Assembly: GCA_001311545.1 (NCBI GenBank)
Contig: BBBL01000017.1
Span: 1 to 11,986 of the forward strand
DNA length: 11,986 bases
From: Thermus kawarayensis JCM 12314
GTDB taxonomy: Bacteria; Deinococcota; Deinococci; Deinococcales; Thermaceae
Reading direction: 5' to 3'
The notes beneath the pieces are model-generated. The model was not told the DNA's origin, searched no databases, and saw nothing but the letters and a program-made list of their open reading frames with translations. The position numbers and the translations under genes were made by a program. Positions 1 to 11,986 of this stretch are shown in pieces (the first letter of the stretch is position 1; each line of letters begins with the position of its first letter).

Positions 1-580
1 CGGGGGGCTCGCCCTGACCGCCGTCGCCATCCACAACGGTTTCAATCCTCTACGAGGCTAACGAGCTTTGCAACGGGAGCTTTCCCCCGAGGGCCTCCTC
101 CGCCTTCTTCTCGTTTCAATCCTCTACGAGGCTAACGAGCTTTGCAACTTCAGGCGGTTGATCACGTGCCAGTAGTAGCGCTCCTCGGTTTCAATCCTCT
201 ACGAGGCTAACGAGCTTTGCAACCGGAGATCTGGGCCACCTTTTCCCCAGGAGGAGGTTTCAATCCTCTACGAGGCTAACGAGCTTTGCAACCGAGCGCC
301 ACTCCACCCCCACAGCAACCTCCACAGGTTTCAATCCTCTACGAGGCTAACGAGCTTTGCAACTTCTCCCCCCGGTCCCTCTCGGGCGCCTTCTCCACCT
401 CGTTTCAATCCTCTACGAGGCTAACGAGCTTTGCAACTTTCTTGCCTCCGGTTGGGGTAGAACTTCGCCCTGGAGTTTCAATCCTCTACGAGGCTAACGA
501 GCTTTGCAACCCACATGGCGGCCAACGGCCCGGCTAGCCAGGAGGTTTCAATCCTCTACGAGGCTAACGAGCTTTGCAAC
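1..580 (-). CRISPR. CRISPR array 1 (8 repeats in window, continues past left edge)
   Basis: Eight identical 36-nt repeats lie at 39-74, 113-148, 188-223, 257-292, 328-363, 402-437, 475-510 and 545-580. The seven complete spacers are 33-39 nt, and bases 1-38 are a further, possibly complete, spacer. Read on the minus strand the repeat begins GTTGCAAAGCTC, contains the hairpin CCTC-GTA-GAGG and ends ATTGAAAC. In Thermus repeats of this family Cas6 cuts 3' of that hairpin, leaving ATTGAAAC as the 5' handle of the crRNA. This orientation, and the leader at 581-822, mean the array is transcribed leftwards, so the newest spacer is 511-544. Repeat position 12 is C in every unit here but T in every unit of array 2. 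Confidence 0.98.
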
Positions 581-819: not shown

Positions 820-1613
820 CTAGAGGGGGACTACCAGGCCCATGCCGTAGGGGGTCTTAGCCCCCACGCCGCTGAAGAAGGCTAGGGCGTGGAGGCGCCC
901 CAGGGCCTCCCGGGCCTCGAGGCTCTGGCTCCAAAGCCTTAGGGTCATCTCACCCGTGAAACCCGGGAAAAAGCCCTTCCCCGCCTGTACCCGGTGGAAG
1001 CGCAGGTTGCGGAAACCCCCCACCTCGAGGTCCAACTCAAAAAGCTCCCGCAAGGCGGCCTCTTCCTTTGGGTTGTAAGCAAAGGGGCTGTGAGCCTGCC
1101 ACTTGTCCAGGAGGGAGCCTGCGATAAGGCGGGGGTCGGGCAAAGGAGTGTAGCGGGTGCGCCCGCCCGGCTTAGAAGTGGCGAAGACCGTGGGGGTGAG
1201 GAAACGAAAGGCGGCCTTTTCCCGCTTGGGAGCCTCCTTGAGCTCCTCCCAGGAGGTGGCCCCGGCCAGGGGGTGCCCCTCGCGGGTAGCCAGGACCCGC
1301 GCCAGCCGGTAGGGATGATCCCCCAGGAGAAGCCCCTCCGTGGCCGCTTCCAGGAGGACCCGGAGAAAGGGGGCAAAAAGACCATCGTCCAGGGCGGTAA
1401 GGCGGAGCCTCAGGGTCCCCTTCAAGGTAGCCCCTTCGGAGCCAACCCTGGGAAGCGGCGCCAGGGTAAAGGGCTTGCGCGGAGCCTCGTGGAGCTTCCG
1501 GGCTAGCTCCGGGCTCACCCGGGAAAGCAGGGCAAAGAAGAGGCCGTGGGCATAGCGGGCGGGGTAAAGGGGGATTTTTCCCCCACGAGCTCGAGGACCA
1601 CGGCCTGAGGCAT
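820..1613 (-). CDS. cas6: Cas6 crRNA-processing endoribonuclease (one apparent frameshift)
   Basis: Cas6 cuts pre-crRNA within each repeat 3' of the hairpin and makes the crRNA guides. The C-terminus carries the family's glycine-rich loop, SGVGAKTPYGMG, ending at the TAG at 820. The reading frame open to 1722 gives an unconvincing Arg/Gly/Pro-rich N-terminus. A better start is ATG 1613 (MPQAVVLELVG), preceded by AGGGGG and overlapping the cas3 stop as TGATG. This requires one extra A in the A5 run at 1575-1579, after which the text reads MPQAVVLELVGEKIPLYPAR and continues to a normal 264-residue Cas6. His23 of the corrected protein is a candidate catalytic histidine. The neighbouring arrays carry exactly the hairpin repeats this enzyme family processes. 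The family assignment is firm; the frameshift is probably a sequence error. Confidence 0.88.
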
Positions 1614-4061
1614 CAGTCCCCCTCTTCTTCCTCTTCCTCGGTTTCTTCGGCCGCCTCCCCCCTCTGGGCGGGCTCCGCCCAGGCCGACTCTCCCAGATAC
1701 CAGAGAACCCGCTTTTCCCCACTCGTTACCTGATCGGTGTCCATAACGCCTTCCGGCGCATGGCCCGCATCCTTTTCCGGGGCGTAGAGAAGCTGGACCG
1801 TTGGGGGTCGGGATGGCGAAGGCGCTGAAACACCTTGGGCAACTCCACGAAGCCCAGCTCTGCGTCGTATGGGTAGGGGTAGTCCAACACCAGCTCCCGC
1901 CCGTAAAGCTCCCCAGAGCGCAAGGGAACCTCTTCCCAGCGCCGGTTGCCCTCTTCTCCATCGGTCAAAAACCGCTCCACAACCCGGACGGGAGTAAGCT
2001 CCTCTTTCCGGCCAACAAGCCGGTCTATGGGAACCTCCACCTCGTCCTCCCCCTTGCGCAGGCGAACGCTGGGCGTCCAGCTTCGGGTAGCCACAAAGCC
2101 CTTGCGGTGGAGGGGCTCTTGGGTAAGGTCCAACCCGTAGACGTAATCCTGCAAAGCTTCAAAGAGGGTTTCCGCCCGAGGGTCCAGGTACCGGGGGTAG
2201 CGGATGGCCTGCCGAAGAGCCTCCTCCCCCCCTTGGGCCAGGTCTTGCCCGTGCAGTTTCTTCAGGAGTTCCAAGTAGCCCTCCGGTAGGCTCCCCAGGT
2301 AGTCGGGGTAGGTTTCCCCAACCACGTAGGCTTCCCCCTGGCCCCTTCCCCTCCGGTTCACCCTTCCCAGGCGCTGCAAGAGGTTTTCCGGCGGGCAGGG
2401 GGTCGTGATAAGGACCTCCGCGTCCAGGTCCACGCCCACTTCAATGGCGGGGGTGGTAATCAAGGTGTAGGGTTCCTTGACCTCGTCCCGGCGCTTGACC
2501 TCCCCAAAGACCCTTCTCCTTTGGCACTCCGCCAGGCGGCCATGGTAGAGGAAGACCCCCTCCCCTTTGAGCCCCTTGTAAAGCTCCGCCGCCTCCTTGA
2601 CCTCCTCCAGAACTACCAGAACCCGCTTGCCCAGGTTGATTCGGATGATTTCCATGAGGTTGCCCGGGGCATGTAGTGGAGTACCCGGCTCGGCCGCTTT
2701 TCCAGAGGGTGCTCCAGGGTGCCCTCGAGGAGCAGCTCCTCCCGGTACGTCCTGGGCATGGTGGCGCTCATCACCAGAAAGCGCACGCCCGCCTTGTACA
2801 AGGAGGCGATCAGGTGACGGAAGTTCACCCAGGCGGTGGCCTCGTAAAGGTGCACCTCGTCAAAGACGAAAAGCGTCCTCCGGTCGTGGATCCGCCGGGG
2901 GAAGGTGTAAGATTTGGCCCCCTCGGCGTAGCCGAAGTAGCGGTAGAGGAGCTTGTCCAAGGTGGTGAGGATGACATCGGCGTGGTAAAGGTGCCGCTCC
3001 TTGGTGGCCTCCTCCTGGCCATCTGGCTAAAGCGAAAGCGCGCCTGGCGGTGGCCGGTATCCACCACCAAGACCTTGGGCCGCCCCTCCCCCTGGGCCAG
3101 GTTTTGAGGTAGCGGCGAAAGCGCCCCTCCAAGTCGTCCACCAGGCTCCGCGTGGGCAGGGCGAGGACGAGCCGCTCCCCCCGGGCCAGGGCGGGGAAGG
3201 CTACGGCCTCGGTCTTCCCCGTTCCCGTGGGGGCGAGGAGGAGGTGGGCCGGACGGCCTTGGGCCACCTCGAAAACCTCCCGCTGAAAGGGAGTGGGCTT
3301 TAGGCCAAACCGGGTGTAGAAGGCCTCGGGGTCGTCCGTTTTCCTCGCCCCGCCCGCCCAGGGCCTGAGGCGCACCCGGCGCCTTTCCTCTTGGAAGGCC
3401 TCGGGCACCTTCCCCTCTTCCAAAGCTCCTACCAGGGCCCGCCCCCATCCCTCCACCACCTTGGCCTCCTCGCCCGGTAGGGGTGGAAGTAGACCAGGAA
3501 GTCCAGGGCGACCTCGTCCACCTGGAAGGGCCAGGGGTCCAAGAGGAACTCGCCTTCGCCGTCAGGTAACAGGTCAAACTCCACGAAGGGCCGGACCTCC
3601 CCTGCCCGCCCCTCCCATAACCGCACCGCAAGCTCCGCCTCCAACTGGTCGGCCATCATGAGGAGGAAGAGGTCCTCGGGGAAGCGGTGGCCCAAGCCCT
3701 CCTCGAGGAAGTCCGCGGCCAGGTTCACCACCTCGCGGGTGGAGTAGTCATGATGGCCTCGGATAAGGGCCTGGGCGTAGGGGTCTCGGACGGCCTGGGC
3801 TACCCGGAAGCGGTGCCCGCGGAAGCTATAGATGAGCCCGCCCTTCCCGTCGGGAACGATGCGGAAGGTGAAGCGCTTTCCGTCATCGTGGTACTGCGCC
3901 GCAAGGAGGAGGCGCTCCTTGGTCTTTGGAGAAAGCGCTAAGGGCTCATCCCCTTCCCGCCACGACGTCAGGAGCTTGACCACAAGCCCCTGGTGGTTGG
4001 AAAGGGGCTGGAAGCCCACCTTGTCCTCTAGAAAGAAGACCCTCCCGATGCCCTCGCCCAT
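1613..4061 (-). CDS. cas3: Cas3 HD nuclease-helicase (five apparent frameshifts)
   Basis: Cas3 is recruited to the target-bound complex, unwinds the DNA and cuts the displaced strand. The corrected protein is about 817 residues. The HD domain shows H23, H58-D59 (QYHDDGK), H83, H103-H104 and D138. The SF2 helicase has Walker A APTGTGKT (near 284), DEVH (402-405), the SAT motif in VMSATMP, and QRLGRVNRRGRG. The frame breaks near 3473-3477, 3102-3105, 3015-3020, 2663-2669 and 1803-1807. At each, one added base rejoins the conserved text, and the total becomes a multiple of three. The start chosen is ATG 4061, with GGAG five bases before it, overlapping the end of cas5 by 34 nt; an upstream ATG at 4082 is less likely. 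The very acidic tail (EAAEETEEEEEEGD) ends in a TGATG overlap with cas6. As written the gene is broken; all motifs survive, which favours sequence error over decay. Confidence 0.9.
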
Positions 4062-4857
4062 AGGAACTCCACCAGATCCCAAGCGAAAAACCGCCCTTCC
4101 AAGGAAAAACCTTTGGCCGAGCCCCGCCCGTGGGGGAGGACAAAATAGGCCCCCTCGTACCCTATGACCGGACTGGGGTCAGGGCTTGCGGGGTCCGGGT
4201 CTTTGGCTTCCCCAAAGCGGAAGCGGTAGAGGGGGTAAGCCCCCTGGATGGCCCCGCCCCAGGTTTCCGCCCGCACGGGGGTGAAGGGCCCATCCCCCTC
4301 CTCGGGGCGGACCTCCAGGGGCTCGCCCACGGCCTCGAGGTAGGCGAAGCCCTCCTTGCCCAGCTTAGCCCCGTAGCCCACCAGGCCCTTGAGGCGCCGG
4401 AGGTCCTCCTCCTTCTCCGCCAAAACCGCCCCCAAAAACTCCTCGGCCAGCAGGTACTCCCAAGTGTGCAGCTGAAGGTCCCCTCCCTTAGGGGGCTTGC
4501 CTTCCCGGCGCAGGCGGGAAAACTCGCTGTGGGTGAAGGCCCTTGGCCCATGCCGATGGGTGCGGTGGACCCTCCACTCCCCCACGGGGTACGCCCCCAG
4601 GGGAAGGTACCGCCGTGGGAGGACGTAGAAGCGGGGAGTGTTCCCCTCCCTCTGGTCCGGGGGAAGGAGGCCCCTTTGAGCCAGAAGAGCCGCCTTAGCC
4701 ACCCCGAAAGGGTGGTGGGCGGGACAAAGGGGTAGGTGGCGATGTCCAGGATGGAGCCGGGAAGCACCCGGAAGGTGAGGGCCGAGGTGGGCTGGATCCT
4801 GAGGGCGATGGCGTACATGTCAGGAAGCGGAAGCCAGGGCCGGAAGGTCTTCCTCAC
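4028..4857 (-). CDS. cas5: Cas5 subunit of the surveillance complex (one apparent frameshift)
   Basis: Cas5 caps the 5' handle of the crRNA and contacts the large subunit. The N-terminal part looks like the Cas5 RAMP fold: a first beta strand (YAIALRIQPTSALTFR), then a loop with TYPFVPPTTLSGWLRRLF, the typical Cas5 'P-PTTL-G' region. The start taken is GTG 4857, overlapping the cas7 stop as GTGA; ATG 4818 is an alternative with no visible ribosome binding site. The frame breaks in the G5 run (plus strand) at 4659-4663; one extra base joins ...WLKGASFP to PDQREGNTPRFYVLP and gives 276 residues, ending at 4028 inside the start of cas3. The subfamily (Cas5t, Cas5h, Csc1-like) cannot be settled by eye; the characteristic Csc1 text is not apparent. 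Confidence 0.82.
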
Positions 4858-5699
4858 AAAAGCTTGGCCAGCTTCTGAAGCGCCTCCAAGGCCGCCCTCC
4901 CCCGGTGGCGCTGGAAAAGGGCTTCTCCTTGGGGAGCATCCTCCGCCCGGCGCCGGAACTCCGCCAGGGCCTCCCCGGGGTCCTTAAGGGTGGGTGGGAG
5001 GACCACCCGCCGCCCCAGGGGGGCCTTGTAGCGGTCCAGGACCAGGTAGGGGCCGAAGGCCTCGTCCTCGTAGAGGTCCAGCCCCTTGGGGTTCCCCGCC
5101 CCGAGCCGGGGAAGGCTTTCCAGGAAGGCGTAGGCCACCGCCCGGAACTCCCTTTCGCTCGCGGCAAGGACGTGGTTGTACACGGGGAAGAGGAGGCCCG
5201 GAGCTCCGTACTGCCGCCTGAAGGGCTGGGGCTCCTCCCCCGACTCCCGCCTGAGGTCCGAGGGATGCATGGCCCGCTGCTTCTCCAAGGGCTCCAGGGC
5301 GGGTATGGCCACACCACCCCCATGGGTCAGCCGACCGATAAAGGTAGTGCGTTCCACGTTTCCACGCTTCTCGGTAACCAAGGCTCCATAGACCCGGCAG
5401 ACGGGGCAGGTTTCCCGGCCACAGGTGTTGGGGATGCCGCAGTCCAGGAGGTCGGTGAGGTAAAGGTGCTGTCCATTCCGCTCCACGGGGGCGTAAAGGA
5501 GGGCCCGCCGCTCCACCCCGCGGCGCTTGGTGGGGGAAAGGTAAACCCGCTCGCTGCCGTCGGGGAGGCTTACGGTCTCAATGAGGTTCACGTTCACCTG
5601 GGTCTCGTGGCCGAAGTAGACCTCCTGGGGGGCGTAGAGCAGGGCGTAGATGTCCCAGTGGTAAAGGGCCTCGCCTTTGGGGGTGATTCCGCTCGCCAT
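4854..5699 (-). CDS. cas7: Cas7 backbone subunit with a four-cysteine cluster
   Basis: Cas7 forms the helical filament that holds the crRNA spacer. The reading frame is intact, 281 residues, from ATG 5699. GGAGG lies seven bases before the start, and the stop of the large-subunit gene lies 1 nt upstream, so the two genes are translationally linked. Residues 87-101 contain CGIPNTCGRETCPVC followed by RVYGAL, giving Cys87, Cys93, Cys98 and Cys101, probably a zinc site. Cys-Pro-x-Cys followed by a Tyr/Phe-Gly is a feature of Csc2 (type I-D Cas7) and Csm3-like proteins. A preceding basic stretch (KRRGVERRALL) also resembles Csc2 from memory. A glycine run (THGGG) lies in the middle. Role as the main RAMP backbone is inferred from order, size and these motifs. 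Confidence 0.8.
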   Translation of the reverse strand: MASGITPKGEALYHWDIYALLYAPQEVYFGHETQVNVNLIETVSLPDGSERVYLSPTKRRGVERRALLYAPVERNGQHLYLTDLLDCGIPNTCGRETCPVCRVYGALVTEKRGNVERTTFIGRLTHGGGVAIPALEPLEKQRAMHPSDLRRESGEEPQPFRRQYGAPGLLFPVYNHVLAASEREFRAVAYAFLESLPRLGAGNPKGLDLYEDEAFGPYLVLDRYKAPLGRRVVLPPTLKDPGEALAEFRRRAEDAPQGEALFQRHRGRAALEALQKLAKLL

Positions 5700-5700
5700 C

Positions 5701-6162
5701 CTAACCCTCCTTCTCCATCCGGATGTACTGGGGGAACCTCGAGGCCAAGCTCAGGCGGACCTCGTAGATAAACCCTTCCCAGGCCTTGCCCGGATAGCGC
5801 GCCGCCAGGTGCGTGTAAACCTGGTGGAGGTCGTCCTGGGAGACGGCCAGGAAGCGGCCCGAGCCTTCCTCCGCCTCCTGCACCCTGGCCCCCGCCTCCT
5901 GGAGGAGCCGCTTGGCCTCCTTGTAGAAGAAAGCCCCGCCCACCTCGTAAAGCCGGGCCTGGGTGCTGTCCAGGTGGTAGGCGGCCACGTACAGGAAGTC
6001 CCCGGGGCGCTCTAGGTTGTCCAGAAGCTTCACCACCGCCCGTTTGGCTTCCTGGGTGTTCCGGCCCACCTGGCCCTCCACGTACCCCACCCAGGCGCTG
6101 AGAAGCCCGGTGAGGCCGGCCACGTCCCGGAAGCGTTGGGAAAGCTCCACGTTTTCCTTCAT
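5701..6162 (-). CDS. cas11: Internal small subunit, Cas11-like (in frame with the 3' end of the large-subunit gene)
   Basis: Several type I systems (I-B, I-C, I-D) make their small subunit from an internal start in the large-subunit gene. Here an in-frame ATG at 6162 is preceded by AAGGAGGTG, a full match to the anti-Shine-Dalgarno, with five bases between GGAGG and ATG. The resulting protein has 153 residues, begins MKENVELSQRFRDVAG, looks largely helical, and shares the stop at 5701-5703 with the large subunit. Size and helical character fit Cas11, which lines the belly of the complex and contacts the displaced DNA strand. The reading frame from 6162 to 5701 has no frameshift. No other gene in the locus could supply a small subunit. 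Function is inferred from context. Confidence 0.68.
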   Translation of the reverse strand: MKENVELSQRFRDVAGLTGLLSAWVGYVEGQVGRNTQEAKRAVVKLLDNLERPGDFLYVAAYHLDSTQARLYEVGGAFFYKEAKRLLQEAGARVQEAEEGSGRFLAVSQDDLHQVYTHLAARYPGKAWEGFIYEVRLSLASRFPQYIRMEKEG

Positions 6163-7983
6163 GCCCACCTCCTTTTCCAAAAGGCCCGCATACCGCATCA
6201 GGCCATCCTCCAGCGAAAACCGATCGGCCACCCGGCCATAGCGCCGCGCCAAGGTGTACAGGGCGTGCCAGGGAAGGTCGCTCAGGGCGTAGCGCAGGGC
6301 TTCCCCCAGGGGGCGGTTGACCTTACCGCCCTCATCCGGCCGGGAGCAAAGGCCCTTTGCAGGACGTGGGAAAGCCAGAGCGCTCTAGGGGGAAGGGGGA
6401 TTTCTTGCGCGCCCTCCACAAGGTAGAAGGGAAAGCGCTCCAGGACCTTAGGGTTTGCCTCTTGCCCCAAGGCCTGGAGGGCGTAGACCACGCGGCCCAA
6501 GGCTTGGGCCAAGGGCTTTCCCCCCACCTGTGGGCTATTCAGGAGCAGGTAGCGCCCAGCCGCCACGTGCAGGGTCCCCGTAACCAGGAGGCGGGCGAAG
6601 TGCTTGGCCGCCTCCGGAGCCCCATAGCTTCCCACCCGCACCAAGACGCTCCCCTCCCCGGGTTTGATGGGGGAAAGGAGAGCAAGGGCGGCGCAGGAAG
6701 GGCAGACCCAGGGCTCTTCCTGGACGCTTCCGCTTTGCAGGCGCTGGCTCGGGCGGGCGAACACCAGCTTGCTGGCCTTGAGCTTGCCCTTATCCAGGGG
6801 GCGCCCGCACCCGTAACAGACATCGGCTTTATCCCCCGGCTCCCTTAGGTCCAAGGTAAAGGGGGTTTCGGAAACCGGAGGCGGCACCTCCACATCAGGG
6901 GACGAAAGGCTGAGGAGGCGGAGGAGCTCCTCGAGGATTTTGGTAAACTTGTCGCCCGCGGGGGTGTTGAGCTGCCCTTTGGCCAAAGGCCGAAGCGCCC
7001 CAGGTACGGCTTAAGCCTCTGGATCGCCCCGGGAGCCTCAGGGCTTTCCGGGTCCAGCCACGTCCAAAGCCGCCCGGGGTCCTCCTTGGCCTGTTCCAGA
7101 CCCTCCAGGGCCCACTGGGCGAGGGGAGGCTCGAGGGCCCGGAGCTCGTTCTCAAGGCGGGGCCTGTCCTTGGGCTTGGCCCTTTGCAACCGTTCCTCCA
7201 GCTTACGCCGCTTTTCGGCCCTTTCCTTCTCCTCTTGGACGATTTTTTTTCCACTTCTTCCGAAGCGCCTCCCCGTATTTCCCAAGCTCCTTCTCCTGTT
7301 TCCGCCGCTGCTTTTCCAGCTCCCGGAGCTTCCTGGACCTCTCCGCACCCTCAGGAAGGCGGGAAACCTCCTCCTCTAGGCGGCGTATCTCCTGATCCCG
7401 CCAGGCTAGGCGCTCTTTGACGGAAAGCAGGTTGGCGAGGTACCAGGCGGCGAGGAAATCCCGGGCTTCCAGGGTGGGTACGGGCACCTTGGGGGCGCTG
7501 ATGCCCTGCCCGGCTAGCCGCACGGAGTTCAGGAGGGGAAGAAGCCTGGCCGAAAGCCCTTCCAGGCTAAAGGCTGCCTCTATGTAGGCCTTCCAGGACC
7601 CCTCGAGGTCCAAGGGCGGGGCCTTAGGGCTGACGTACACCTTCACCCAGCCTGTACCCCGCTCCACCACGGGGTAACCCTGGGCCTCCAGGTGGTCCAG
7701 GAAGCCCTCGAGGGCCACCTCGTAGGCCGCCCGCATCTGGCGCTCACCGGGCAAGGGATGGAGGTACAGGAGCAGGTCCTTGCCCTTGGGAGAGAGGGCT
7801 TGCGAATCCCCAGGCGCCACACGCAGGTAGCGTATAAGCCGGGGCTCTATCCGCTCCAGGAAGGCCCCAAACTCCGGGTCGGCAAGCACCTCTTTATAGG
7901 CCAAAAGGCTTCCCTAAAAGCCTCGCCGAAACGCACATCGGCCACAAGCCGCTTGGCCCTAGCACGGTAGAAGCTTGCACCAT
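5701..7983 (-). CDS. Large subunit, Cas8-like (five apparent frameshifts)
   Basis: This gene sits where the large subunit of a type I complex is expected, 29 nt after the WYL gene and directly before cas7. Assembled across frame breaks near 7977-7983, 7903-7906, 7243-7250, 6985-6987 and 6319-6324 it encodes about 761 residues. Four sites lack one base; the A8 run at 7243-7250 has one too many. In order it has an alpha/beta N-terminal half, a Lys/Glu-rich probable coiled coil (about 215-280), a zinc-finger pair CYGC (390-393) and CPSC (428-431), and a helical C-terminus. I see no HD site and no GGDD, so it is not a canonical Cas10 or Cas10d. The start is uncertain: ATG 7983 follows GGAG but needs one added G; ATG 7995 is the alternative. 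The large-subunit role is inferred; the Cas8 subfamily is not recognised. Confidence 0.72.
6166..6174 (-). promoter_or_regulatory. Strong internal ribosome binding site
   Basis: Minus-strand AAGGAGGTG is followed by GGC and then ATG (6162-6160). It lies well inside the large-subunit coding sequence (reading EKEVG), where such a site has no role in translating the large subunit. It is the most complete Shine-Dalgarno sequence I noticed in the window. Confidence 0.75.
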
Positions 7984-8012
7984 TACCCGCTCCATCCTAA
8001 CCCCAGGCCAGG

Positions 8013-8996
8013 TTAACCCAGCCCCGTCACCCCTTCCGGTGACAAAACGCCCTCGTTTGCCGCCACCGCCCCCTTCGCCCACGCCACCACCCGCCGCCTC
8101 AGCTCCTCGGGCTCCAGCACGGTGGCGTGGGGGCCGTAGCCCGCGATGAGGTGCACCAGGTCCTCGGAGAGGGGCACCTCCACCTGCCAGACCACGCTCC
8201 CGTCGGGGAGGTCCTCCACCACCTGGGTGGGGTGGCGGCGGGTCCGGCGGATGAAGCCCGCCTTCTCGGGACTAAAGCGCACCCGGACCCGCACGGGAGG
8301 GCCTTCCCCGGCAAAGGCCCGGAAGCGGCTTTGCGCATAGGCCCTCACGTCAAAGCGGGGCTTCCTAAAACGCTCGCGAGTAAGCCGGAGGTCCAGAATC
8401 TGGTCCAGCCTAAGGTCCTTCACGGGGTCGTGCCCCGCCCGCCGGGAGTTGTGGTTGGCCCCCACCAGGTAGAGGTGGGGGTCCCGGGCGATGAGGGCGT
8501 AGGGGTCAAAGCGGTAGGTCTTGACCTCCCCCTTGGCGTTCTTGTAAGTGACCTGGCAGGTCCGCCGCTCCCTGATGGCCCGCACCGCCCGCTCAAAAAG
8601 CCACTCAGGGTACTCGTCCACGAGCGGGGTGTAGACCACGGGTTCCTGCCACCCTTTCCCCGTGGAGGGGAGAGCTTTGAGGGCCAAGTGCTCCAAAGCC
8701 CTACTGGCCAAGGGGGTAAGGTGCGCCACCCGCTCCACCGCGGCCCTTAAGGCCTCGGCCTCCTCGAGGGTAAGGCGGAGGGTCACTTCCAAGGGAGCCT
8801 CGAGGCGCATCCACCCCGGGGGGACCTCGGGGTTTTCTCCATGGGTTTCCACCCACACCCCGAGGCTTTGGGCCTTGTCCCTCAAGCGGTAAACGCTCTG
8901 CCGCCTCACTCTGAGCCGGGCAGCGATCTCCCGCACGGGAAGCCCTTTGGAGTTTTCCCTAAGCAGGCGAAGGAAATCCGGTAGGCGGCTTTCCAT
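8013..8996 (-). CDS. WYL-domain transcriptional regulator
   Basis: The protein is 327 residues from ATG 8996; a GTG at 9017 would add seven residues but overlaps the predicted -10 box. The N-terminus is a winged helix-turn-helix (LPVREIAARLRVRRQSVYRL). The middle and C-terminal parts read as a WYL domain with its C-terminal extension: DPYALIARDPHLYLVGANH contains the strand that names the family, followed by RLDQI and a C-terminal region (VRVRVRFSP...VVWQVEVPL). WYL proteins commonly sense nucleotide ligands and control phage defence genes, often as repressors. It heads the effector operon and is followed after about 29 nt by the large-subunit gene. No frame break is seen. The regulatory targets are inferred from palindromes upstream of cas8 and cas4. 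Confidence 0.88.
   Translation of the reverse strand: MESRLPDFLRLLRENSKGLPVREIAARLRVRRQSVYRLRDKAQSLGVWVETHGENPEVPPGWMRLEAPLEVTLRLTLEEAEALRAAVERVAHLTPLASRALEHLALKALPSTGKGWQEPVVYTPLVDEYPEWLFERAVRAIRERRTCQVTYKNAKGEVKTYRFDPYALIARDPHLYLVGANHNSRRAGHDPVKDLRLDQILDLRLTRERFRKPRFDVRAYAQSRFRAFAGEGPPVRVRVRFSPEKAGFIRRTRRHPTQVVEDLPDGSVVWQVEVPLSEDLVHLIAGYGPHATVLEPEELRRRVVAWAKGAVAANEGVLSPEGVTGLG
8026..8043. promoter_or_regulatory. Palindrome GTCACC-N6-GGTGAC upstream of cas8-like gene
   Basis: A perfect 6+6 inverted repeat with a 6-nt centre lies in the last codons of the WYL gene, about 43-60 nt before the large-subunit start. In the direction of cas8 it reads TTTT then GTCACC-N6-GGTGAC. The same arrangement stands before cas4. 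No T-run follows it, so it is not a terminator. A likely operator, perhaps for the WYL protein; an RNA hairpin is possible. Confidence 0.5.
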
Positions 8997-9007
8997 AGGT
9001 TGGCCCC

Positions 9008-9036
9008 ATTCTACCACAAACCCCTTCTTCCCTCAA
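9008..9036 (-). promoter_or_regulatory. Promoter of the WYL gene / effector operon
   Basis: On the minus strand TTGAGG (9036-9031) and TAGAAT (9013-9008) are separated by 17 nt, a good sigma-70/SigA-type promoter. The expected start site falls only a few bases before ATG 8996, giving a very short or leaderless message, common in Thermus. A GGTGAC half-site (9044-9039) lies two bases upstream of the -35 box, well placed for autoregulation. Confidence 0.6.
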
Positions 9037-9044
9037 AGGTCACC

Positions 9045-9455
9045 CGGCTTACCGCCCTTCCCCCAGAAGCGCCGCCATCTTTTAGACCAAGGGGCCCTTC
9101 CCATAGGAAAAGCCCGAGCTCTGAACGCGGGCCCGAGAGAGGGAAGCAGCCGTTAGGGGCATCCACGCGCCAGCTGGCCTCCTGGCTCGAGCGGGTACCC
9201 CGGACTTCCCCCACGTACACCCACCCAACGTCTAAAGAGGGCGTAGTGGGAACCGGAAAGAACTCCGCCCTGGTCGTGGAGGATAAAGCGCGTGGTCATA
9301 GCGTCATAGGGATAGTTCCGGTTCGTGGCCACACCTTCCAGGTGCCGCTGGCGTTGTACCTACACCGTTGCGGGCGGCCAGTCCCAAAACAAGAAGGGTC
9401 AAAGTGCACCGTAAGCGCAAGGCTCACCTCCAAAGCGCCAACCTAGAGGCTTTTG
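9045..9455. other. Intergenic region between the two divergent operons; possible transposase relic
   Basis: No convincing gene is present. A plus-strand open frame covers 9000-9446, but its N-terminal half is low-quality Pro/Ser/Arg-rich text. Only a short part, about 9250-9385 (ALVVEDKARGHSVIGIVPV and RGHTFQVPLALYLHR), looks protein-like and faintly recalls the first catalytic-Asp region and following strands of IS4/IS701-type transposases. No terminal inverted repeats or target duplication were found. The cas4 promoter presumably lies towards the right end, but I could not pick convincing -35 and -10 boxes. Confidence 0.3.
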
Positions 9456-9500: not shown

Positions 9501-9539
9501 CCCCTGGGGTAGGTCTAAGGCATGGGCCATGGGGAAGCC

Positions 9540-10106
9540 ATGGAATACCTACCCCTCTCCAAGGTGAACACGGTGGTCTACTGCCCCCGGCGCTTCTATC
9601 TGGAGTACGTCCTGGGAGAGGTGCACACCAACCACCACCTGATCGAGGGCCACTACCTCCACACAAGGGCCTACACCGAGCCGGGGGAGGAGAGCGGGCT
9701 TTGGGTGTGGTCGGACCGGCTTGGGCTTCTTGGGGTGGTGGATCGGCTGGAGTGGCGGCGGGGGGAGGCCTGTCCCGTGGAGTACAAGCTGGGCCGGGCC
9801 AAGGAAGAGGCCTACCTCTCCGATGCCGTGCAGCTTGCCGCCCAGGCCCTTTGTCTCCGAGAATCCAGGGGTATTGAGGCCCAGAGGGGGTTCGTCTACT
9901 ACCACAAAAGCCACACCCGCCGGGAAGTGGTTTTCACCCCGGAGCTCTTTCACGCCGTGGAGGCGGCTGTAGCCCGAATGCGGGCCCTTCTCCAAAGCCC
10001 TCGCCTCCCAAGGGTAGACGTTCCCCCCTCCAAGTGCGAGGGGTGTAGCGTGCGGGGCGCCTGCCAGCCCGAGCTGTGGCGGAAGGGAGGGGTGGGATGG
10101 GCGTAG
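9540..10106 (+). CDS. cas4: Cas4 4Fe-4S nuclease of the adaptation module
   Basis: Cas4 trims prespacers and helps select those next to a proper PAM, working with Cas1-Cas2. From ATG 9540 the protein has 188 residues (MEYLPLSKVN); an in-frame ATG at 9522 adds six residues and is less typical. Iron-sulphur ligands are Cys15 (YCPRRFYLEYV) and Cys166, Cys169, Cys175 (CEGCSVRGAC). The RecB-like nuclease site is visible as His41, Asp68 (GVVDRLEW), Glu81-Tyr-Lys83 (PVEYKLG) and Gln98 (DAVQLAAQ). It is the first gene of the plus-strand operon and overlaps cas1 by 10 nt. The frame is intact and all catalytic positions are present. Confidence 0.95.
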   Translation: MEYLPLSKVNTVVYCPRRFYLEYVLGEVHTNHHLIEGHYLHTRAYTEPGEESGLWVWSDRLGLLGVVDRLEWRRGEACPVEYKLGRAKEEAYLSDAVQLAAQALCLRESRGIEAQRGFVYYHKSHTRREVVFTPELFHAVEAAVARMRALLQSPRLPRVDVPPSKCEGCSVRGACQPELWRKGGVGWA

Positions 10107-11074
10107 TCTACATCCTGGAAAATGAAGCCTACCTTTCCAAGGAGGGGGGAACCCTCAAGGTGTCCCGGCGGGCTGGGCGGGAGGTGCTCCTGCAAAAACC
10201 CCTCATCACGGTGGAGGAGATCGTGATCCTGGGCAACGCGGTGGTAACCCCAGCCCTCCTCAAGCACTGCGCCCAAGAGGGCGTCGGTATCCACTACCTC
10301 TCCCCCACCGGGACCTACTACGCGGGCCTCACCCGTACCCTGTCCAAGAACGCTCCTGCTCGGGTAGCCCAGTTCAAAGCCCACCTGGAGCCTACGTGGA
10401 AGCTCACCCTGGCCCAGCGCTTCGTTTTGGGGAAGATCCGAAATGGCCTCGTCTTCCTAAGGCGCAATGGGGCCGAGGGCTGGGAAAGGCTCAAGGAAAC
10501 TCTTCTAGAAGCCGAGCGCGCCCAAGATGAGGAGGCGCTAAGGGGCGCTGAGGGCCGGGCTGCCGACCTCTACTTCCGGGCCTTTGCGGAACTTTTGCCG
10601 GAGGGGTTCGCCTTTGGGGAGCGGAGCCGCCGCCCACCCCGGGACCCGGCCAACAGCCTTCTCTCCCTGGCCTACACCCTCCTCGCCAAGGAGTGTGAAA
10701 GCGCCCTCCTCGTGGCCGGGCTTGACCCTTATGTGGGCTACCTCCACGAGGTGCGCTACGGCCGCCCCTCGTTGGCGTTGGACCTGATGGAGGAGTTCCG
10801 GAGCGTCCTCGCGGACTCGGTGGTTCTAAGCCTTCTCAACAACCGCCGGGTGACCCTCGAGGACTTTGACGACAGCGAAGGTTTCCCCCGTCTACGGAAA
10901 GAGGCGTGGCCCAAGTTCTTGAGGGCTTGGGAAGAGCGACTAAACGAGCGGGTACAGCACCCCCTTCTGAGAAAGCGCCTGGCCTATCGCGAAATCCTCT
11001 TAGCCCAAGTCCGGATCCTGGTCAAGCACCTTTTAGGGGAGCTTCCCCGCTACGAGCCCTTTGCGGTGCGATGA
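10097..11074 (+). CDS. cas1: Cas1 integrase
   Basis: Cas1, with Cas2, inserts new spacers at the leader end of the array. The start chosen is ATG 10097 (MGVVYILENEAYLSKEGG), which follows a GGAAGGGAGGGG tract and overlaps the cas4 end; a GTG at 10076 is in frame but gives an atypical N-terminus. The 325-residue protein is intact. Metal-binding candidates are Glu152 (GAEGRAADLYF), His217 (YVGYLHEVRYG) and Asp229/Glu232 (LALDLMEEFR). AGLDPYVGYLH with SLALDLMEEF is the classic Cas1 core. The stop overlaps the cas2 start as ATGA. This adaptation module probably serves both arrays, since both leaders share the near-array block. Confidence 0.97.
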   Translation: MGVVYILENEAYLSKEGGTLKVSRRAGREVLLQKPLITVEEIVILGNAVVTPALLKHCAQEGVGIHYLSPTGTYYAGLTRTLSKNAPARVAQFKAHLEPTWKLTLAQRFVLGKIRNGLVFLRRNGAEGWERLKETLLEAERAQDEEALRGAEGRAADLYFRAFAELLPEGFAFGERSRRPPRDPANSLLSLAYTLLAKECESALLVAGLDPYVGYLHEVRYGRPSLALDLMEEFRSVLADSVVLSLLNNRRVTLEDFDDSEGFPRLRKEAWPKFLRAWEERLNERVQHPLLRKRLAYREILLAQVRILVKHLLGELPRYEPFAVR

Positions 11075-11354
11075 GGGAACTGTACCTGGTCATCGCCTAC
11101 GATACTCCTGACGACCGTCGCCGGGCGCGGCTTGCTAAGCTGCTAAAAGGCTTTGGTGAAAGGCGGCAGTACTCCGTGTTTGAAGCCCGATTGACCCGGG
11201 AGCAGTGGGCCCACCTCAAGGGCAAGCTGGAAGCCCTGGTCAACCAGGAGGAGGACGTTTTGGCGGTGTACTTCTTGCCCCCAGAGGCGGTGGGACGCAC
11301 CTGGCGCATCGGCCACGAGGGGTTGAAGCGCTTGAGGATCCCGACTTCGTCTAG
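11071..11354 (+). CDS. cas2: Cas2 adaptation protein (one apparent frameshift near the C-terminus)
   Basis: Cas2 dimerises and bridges two Cas1 dimers in the integrase complex. The start MRELYLVIAYDTPDDRRR has the ferredoxin-like first strand with the conserved Asp after Tyr (Asp11), and RQYSVFEARL is the usual second strand. As written the frame runs on through the leader and into the array region to 11610, which is too long for the family. Adding one base near 11326-11332 joins ...IGHEGLK to LEDPDFV and a TAG at 11352-11354, giving a standard 94-residue Cas2. The total then becomes a multiple of three, and the stop falls exactly where the leader homology begins. Confidence 0.92.
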
Positions 11355-11593: not shown

Positions 11594-11986
11594 GTTGCAA
11601 AGCTTGTTAGCCTCGTAGAGGATTGAAACCGCCCATCATCCGCCCTCCCCCCATGCCTGAAGGCGGTTGCAAAGCTTGTTAGCCTCGTAGAGGATTGAAA
11701 CATAACGCCTCCCGCAACGCGCCGAGGGCGCGGTAAAGGGGTTGCAAAGCTTGTTAGCCTCGTAGAGGATTGAAACAATCCCACCGACCGCACCTCGCAT
11801 CATCTGGGTGACGTTGCAAAGCTTGTTAGCCTCGTAGAGGATTGAAACCGGAGGAGCGGTATGACCTGCTCGGCGCTAAAGCCGGTTGCAAAGCTTGTTA
11901 GCCTCGTAGAGGATTGAAACGCGGTGCGGGCCGCCCGGGAGCTCGGCCTCCTGGGGATGTTGCAAAGCTTGTTAGCCTCGTAGAGG
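11594..11986 (+). CRISPR. CRISPR array 2 (5 full repeats plus a cut one, continues past right edge)
   Basis: Repeats lie at 11594-11629, 11666-11701, 11741-11776, 11813-11848 and 11885-11920, and a sixth (11959-11986) is cut by the window end after 28 of 36 nt. Spacers are 36, 39, 36, 36 and 38 nt. The repeat starts GTTGCAAAGCTT, has the hairpin CCTC-GTA-GAGG and ends ATTGAAAC, so transcription is rightwards and the newest spacer is 11630-11665. It differs from the array 1 repeat only at position 12 (T instead of C), consistently in every unit. No spacer visibly matches the rest of the window. Confidence 0.98.

Follow-up and report, generated by a model that had tools for sequence, protein, structure and literature searches.

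The cas8b gene of a type I-B CRISPR-Cas locus from Thermus kawarayensis JCM 12314 very probably encodes two proteins, the large subunit of the Cascade complex and, from an internal start codon, a predicted small subunit Cas11b of 153 aa with the N-terminus MKEN. The locus lies in the window, i.e. the whole stretch of 11,986 nucleotides that was analysed (contig BBBL01000017.1). Production of Cas11 by internal initiation within the large-subunit gene had been proposed in the first-pass annotation of this DNA; it is supported here by translation signals, by their conservation in relatives, by a predicted domain boundary and by the lack of any other small-subunit gene in the locus.

The internal translation of Cas11 is already known, and the Thermus case adds a further example. 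Its occurrence in types I-B, I-C and I-D, which the first-pass annotation had stated, is confirmed by the literature, where its reported share is about 23% of all CRISPR-Cas systems (PMC9123187).

The type I-B locus and the state of its genes

The window carries the following features:

39..580, minus strand: CRISPR array, 8 repeats
820..1613, minus strand: cas6, one frameshift at ~1574, start placed by comparison with HB8
1613..4061, minus strand: cas3 (HD and helicase), five single-base losses, ends placed by comparison with HB8
4028..4818, minus strand: cas5b, one frameshift at ~4682, start placed by comparison with HB8
4854..5699, minus strand: cas7b, open frame as listed, two frameshifts near the 3' end
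5701..7995, minus strand: cas8b (large subunit), frame broken relative to HB8, start codon placed by alignment with HB8
8013..9017, minus strand: WYL-domain regulator, listed open frame, upstream of the operon
9522..10106, plus strand: cas4, listed open frame
10097..11074, plus strand: cas1
11071..11352, plus strand: cas2, end approximate, single-base loss at ~11333
11594..11986, plus strand: second CRISPR array, five complete repeats plus a sixth truncated where the window ends

The order on the minus strand is WYL regulator, cas8b, cas7b, cas5b, cas3, cas6; cas4, cas1 and cas2 are on the plus strand, divergent from this effector operon, and CRISPR arrays are found at both ends (repeats of 36 nt, with a single-base difference between the two arrays). 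PADLOC assigns the type I-B models of Cas8b (1.6e-61 to 4.4e-94, on gene pieces), Cas7b (8e-138) and Cas5b (4e-103), and Cas3 and Cas6 were also identified by profiles. By these profile matches, the locus is of type I-B and the gene that hosts the internal frame, taken for a large-subunit gene in the first-pass annotation, is cas8b. No Pfam or NCBIfam family matches this Cas8b or its pieces at cut-off. The intact Cas3 of HB8 has the DEAD and Cas3 C-terminal domains, with a sub-threshold HD match. The best scores of Cas1 and Cas4 are with I-D, I-C and I-G models, none of them above the NCBIfam subtype cut-off. CRISPR subtypes exchange adaptation genes among themselves. A filing as type I-D, considered for the I-D-like Cas1, Cas4 and WYL gene, was dropped because the effector proteins are I-B according to PADLOC. 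A WYL regulator flanks the Synechocystis I-D locus as well as that of the window.

The locus is ~93% identical to plasmid pTT27 of T. thermophilus. Matches to the cas8b region occur in 15 plasmid records of this species, and in 12 of these they span the full gene, at 92.5–93.3% identity. The viral contigs searched yielded no relative. Strain HB8 carries the same genes intact (cas8b is TTH_RS11135). The 162-base stretch 9146–9307, between the WYL gene and cas4, is missing from HB8. In HB27, cas3 (locus L002, 9439–11888) is annotated as two CDS of 1803 and 660 bases, against a single CDS in HB8.

A free-standing small-subunit gene was considered and rejected, as none occurs among the genes of the window locus or of the fetched HB8 and HB27 loci; the first-pass annotation had said as much for the window, and its open reading frames and the annotated relatives bear this out. 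When 111 Deinococcota genomes were queried with Cas11, matches were obtained only inside the cas8b frames of four genomes, so that no copy was found outside cas8b in this set; these four are also the only ones with a Cas8b of the window type, and the same four have its Cas7b. Two database proteins of 160 residues (P0028, located on a 99 kb contig, and P0029) begin at the Cas11 start and show 62–64% identity, but their C-termini diverge (that of P0028 reads KDVRVWALRRLTEL); they are possibly free-standing or decayed forms of Cas11. The predicted product is absent from standard annotation, as the first-pass annotation had expected: T. thermophilus records label cas8b, cas7b and cas5b 'hypothetical protein', and of the 15 loci found in this species, the ten that were fetched have no annotated small subunit (the PLSDB gene table declares itself incomplete).

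In the window, cas8b differs from that of HB8 by five indels of one base each and by a loss of three bases, and is split into several frames upstream of ~6346, a break on which the first-pass annotation was silent. The 153-codon cas11b stretch has no indel relative to HB8. Fourteen single-base indels affect the interference genes (cas8b 5, cas7b 2 near its end, cas5b 1, cas3 5, cas6 1), as against none in cas4 and cas1 and a single one in cas2, close to its end. Indels in 820–7995 look unevenly distributed between interference and adaptation genes, and it could be held that the interference operon is decaying, the intact C-terminal frame being a leftover and not a working Cas11b. This is unlikely, as 14 of the 15 indels are one-base losses and ~11 of the 15 lie in short G or C homopolymers, the pattern expected of sequencing errors, while nucleotide identity to HB8 is even across the interference genes (92.5–95.1%) and both cas8b and cas3 are annotated as intact in HB8. 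The frameshifts of the window are therefore probably sequencing errors. A genuine decay would in any case leave untouched the conservation of the internal signal in intact relatives.

The internal ribosome-binding site and start codon

Three features lie at the 3' end of cas8b:

6166..6175, minus strand: Shine-Dalgarno (SD) sequence AAAGGAGGTG inside cas8b, containing the AAGGAGGTG of the first-pass annotation (6166–6174), energy -16.9 kcal/mol
6160..6162, minus strand: internal ATG start codon, equivalent to Met614 of the intact HB8 Cas8b
5701..6162, minus strand: predicted cas11b, 153 aa, 17.4 kDa, shared TAG stop included

The minus strand reads 5'-GCCTTTTGGAAAAGGAGGTGGGCATGAAGGAAAAC-3' from 6185 to 6151, spanning both SD and internal ATG. 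The motif AAGGAGGTG (6174–6166) is the sole exact copy in the window, both strands considered, and the pattern AAGGAGGTGNNNATG has one exact occurrence. As the first-pass annotation had stated, the spacing is ideal: the GGAGG core is followed by five bases (TGGGC) and by ATG 6162, which is in the cas8b frame. The TAG at 5703–5701 ends both the cas8b frame and the 153-codon internal frame, and the internal product (MKENVELS...MEKEG, 17.36 kDa) has the size and the shared stop predicted for it. The -16.9 kcal/mol is the energy of the SD duplex with the presumed sequence of the 16S tail. In HB8, the equivalent site has the same energy, against -6.8 kcal/mol for the cas8b start. It ranks first of 189 among in-frame ATG, GTG and TTG codons within the nine genes of the HB8 I-B locus, and again first when all 154 ATGs of this 13.3 kb locus are compared, whatever their frame or strand; it therefore stands out by its position. 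It exceeds eight of the nine annotated starts there, only that of cas1 being stronger.

SD rank alone is nevertheless a poor judge, because in Synechocystis Cas10d, used as control, codon 830, the Cas11d start in the solved complex, comes 14th among 47 by SD, the best internal ATG being codon 786. Moreover, the SD and ATG might merely follow from the GC-rich codons of a charged linker (EKEVGM), as a by-product. Cas8b would then be made in its full-length form only, its C-terminal domain acting as a fused small subunit. Small subunits fused to the large one are described for types I-F and I-G. Synonymous recoding of SLLEKEVG in HB8 yields an equally strong SD in 27% or 29% of draws (two runs) and therefore cannot part the SD from the protein sequence; over five sequences, P values of 0.29, 0.42, 0.04, 0.36 and 0.17 combine to 0.09. 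The SD is thus no stronger than peptide and codon bias predict. Nor is there any synonymous depletion at the site: between window and HB8, one of 11 codons is changed and 305 of 699 windows are as low, and no codon is changed in SG0.5 and JL-18, yet 444 and 449 of 755 windows are as low. The site is not unusually unpaired either at 37 or at 68 °C (ranks 55 and 74 of 129 for RNA accessibility). Against a by-product stand the rank of the site within the gene, the start codon kept within a linker otherwise free to vary, the predicted domain boundary with the autonomous fold of the C-terminal piece, and the precedent of I-B, I-C and I-D systems that lack a separate cas11. Taken together, these make the by-product very unlikely.

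The conservation of the start was examined at the DNA level in 16 loci, namely ten of T. thermophilus type (window included), one of Calidithermus roseus, three of other Deinococcota and two from Picosynechococcus plasmids, the homologous ATG being chosen by eye in each, from the alignment or the sequence. They derive from the plasmid loci fetched (10 of 15 for T. thermophilus, 2 of 2 for cyanobacteria) and from the 111 Deinococcota genomes, four of which have the gene; a scan of genome contigs for the gene gave one locus. An eleventh T. thermophilus locus (L010), outside this comparison, has the same site. A homologous in-frame ATG is present in all 16 loci, and a ribosome-binding site (RBS) at -10.9 or stronger, up to -17.0, precedes it in 14, all from Deinococcota; the loss of either signal in close orthologues, named in the first-pass annotation as evidence that would speak against an internal start, was thus not encountered. 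In the 14 Deinococcota loci, this ATG has the best RBS among the in-frame ATGs (in SNM6-6, it is the sole ATG). The site is weak in the two cyanobacterial loci (-4.2), where it comes fifth among 15 and among 12 ATGs, respectively. The five distinct Deinococcota sequences place the homologous ATG first of 5, 7, 2, 5 and 3 in-frame ATGs, and 1/50, 3/41, 1/48, 3/42 and 1/33 among all ATG, GTG and TTG codons, the third ranks being those of C. roseus and genome G030. The codon positions with an equally strong upstream site number 2/746, 29/729, 2/721, 43/745 and 7/740; a Fisher test on the rarity of so strong a site gives 2e-6 for the five, a value that overstates the evidence because the sequences are related. 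In G030 and G040, the peptide differs (SLMEVLM and SLLEVLM), with GGAGGT and ATG still present. The SD and ATG are thus kept across Thermus loci. The check at synonymous positions, proposed in the first-pass annotation, gave no support, its tests being uninformative.

At the protein level, 21 long homologues (526–826 aa) from a protein search were aligned. Met occupies the start column in 17 of them; two others have Val there, and the remaining two have Arg (with Met three columns on). This is the sole internal column with Met in more than 50% of the rows. P0001 and P0006, left out of this alignment, both have Met at the start; in a first alignment of 23 rows, Met was found in 18 because P0013 was out of register. 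Conservation reaches 0.81 at the start column, against means of 0.40 over the 20 columns before it and 0.23 over the 8 after it. Some database gene models, namely P0024 and P0031 (the latter identical to the end of P0016), begin precisely at this Met.

Internal initiation might instead favour a different codon. A candidate is ATG 6198 (MRYAGLLEKEVGM...), located 12 codons upstream, which has a site of its own (-10.0) and at which gene model P0025 starts. A start there was rejected, as this codon varies among relatives (TTG in HC11, ATA in SNM6-6, AGG in C. roseus) where ATG 6162 is present in each of the 16 loci; a main start other than 6162 is highly improbable.

The predicted C-terminal domain and the modularity of Cas8b

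In the model of the intact Cas8b, an isolated low-confidence (flexible) stretch at residues 613–617 falls at Met614. The 153-aa product modelled alone has a mean AF2 pLDDT of 86.8 and a pTM of 0.84. The internal start thus coincides with the predicted point at which an autonomous C-terminal domain begins; its 17.4 kDa compare with the ~14–17 kDa expected for a Cas11 of this kind. The first-pass annotation described the product as helical-looking; this is right as regards the seven helices of the model and incomplete in that three strands are also present.

Sequence searches of the PDB found no solved relative of this family: no CRISPR chain was returned for the piece from the window, for the Cas8b of HB8 or of a cyanobacterium, or for the profile of the family, in a copy from which the entry of Synechocystis sp. 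PCC 6714 may be absent. With whole Thermus-type Cas8b, the first Foldseek row is Cas10d of the type I-D Cascade of Synechocystis 6803 (7sba_I, probability 1.00, E 2e-3), no match reaching E 0.001 or better; in a second structural look, unrelated coiled-coil chains outrank the CRISPR chains. The alignment of the Cas8b family with Cas10d by hhalign revealed no sequence similarity. Fold searches with the 153-aa model gave neither a Cas11 nor a convincing PDB match among the best 50 listed by either program; this comparison with solved Cas11, proposed in the first-pass annotation, gave no support, although the missing match carries no weight either way.

The cas8b of TTHNAR1 (L016) is, on sequence comparison, a natural chimera: 268 of its last 270 residues are those of HB8, and the preceding ~410 residues are only ~35–52% identical. 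The gene of SNM6-6 (L017) looks similar. In these two records, only a CDS of 263 or 265 residues is annotated out of an open frame of 683 or 685 residues. In SNM1-7 (L015, 1247–3052), a CRISPR array replaces the 5' part of cas8b, translated repeats being visible, and residues 324 to the end, Cas11b included, are 99.5% identical to HB8.

It is conceivable, although rather doubtful, that this Cas8b family carries a distinct, partly beta Cas11 as a movable unit, Cas11b being the core that stays constant and Cas8b the partner that varies. If so, the PAM-reading N-terminal part of Cas8b would have been swapped (TTHNAR1, SNM6-6) or lost to a CRISPR array (SNM1-7), and the Cas11 module with its internal start and RBS would have stayed intact throughout.

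Related systems and a model for the expression of cas8b

Three of the closest parallels are of type I-B. In Synechocystis sp. PCC 6714, the 3' end of cas8b contains an internal RBS from which the small subunit is made, as proposed here; Cas11b is identical to the C-terminal domain of Cas8b and is present in three copies per Cascade (Cas8b1-Cas7b7-Cas5b1-Cas6b1-Cas11b3, i.e. a Cas11b:Cas8b ratio of 3:1), the proteins differing in size from those of Thermus (Cas8b, formerly Cmx8, 70 kDa; Cas11b <15 kDa) (PMC11096372). Haloferax volcanii uses an internal Met (M545) of cas8b, and its Cas11b, a peptide of which was seen by mass spectrometry, is needed for efficient interference; this system differs in being archaeal and in its potential SD, GGATG, against ten bases in the Thermus window (PMC11899642). 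Thermotoga maritima is, like Thermus, a thermophile with an internal site in cas8b1. There, Cascade assembly in Escherichia coli required Cas11 as a gene of its own and Cas8b1 did not co-purify without Cas11; the T. maritima site is silent in E. coli, whereas that of the window is strong on paper (PMC13199841). Two parallels belong to other subtypes. Cas11c of Desulfovibrio vulgaris, of type I-C, is made from an internal RBS in cas8c (PMC7684278). In the I-D system of Synechocystis 6803 (PMC9123187), the last 146 residues of the large subunit also form a chain of their own, Cas11d (7sba_J); this system differs from the Thermus case by the HD nuclease domain in its large subunit, by its weak SD and by the blank hhalign comparison.

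Combined with these precedents, the signals described above allow the following model to be drawn. Some ribosomes would start at the cas8b ATG and synthesize the large subunit. Others would bind the internal SD and start at ATG 6162, giving the free C-terminal domain, Cas11b, probably in excess over Cas8b; the energies of -16.9 and -6.8 kcal/mol for the internal site and the HB8 cas8b start fit the need for more Cas11b than Cas8b. By analogy with the solved I-B, I-C and I-D complexes, several copies of Cas11b would stack beside the identical C-terminal domain of Cas8b to form the belly of Cascade and would hold the displaced DNA strand upon R-loop formation. The common stop ends one base before the ATG of cas7b, and the extra ribosome traffic may, more speculatively, feed cas7b. 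Initiation at 6162, assembly of Cas11b into Cascade and its function there are what we infer from this comparison.

The Thermus case thus adds to the known ones natural chimeras, a very strong SD inside the gene and a Cas8b family for which sequence searches found no solved relative. The I-B system of T. thermophilus HB27 is active in vivo and interferes, according to PMC10989782, and that of T. thermophilus has been used for host genome editing. The fetched records and the main text of the editing paper are silent on a small subunit ('Cas11', 'small subunit' and 'cas8' do not occur in the main text of PMC10989782), and a literature search of open-licence PMC returned no paper on a Cas11 from the I-B system of Thermus; where the papers inspected treat Thermus, they deal with type III systems, give a reference or leave I-B unmentioned. 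To rebuild this thermostable Cascade in another host, one would, as in the case of T. maritima, have to supply Cas11b or keep the internal start. The very strong SD would also make cas8b a clean test case for the relation between start-site strength and subunit ratios.
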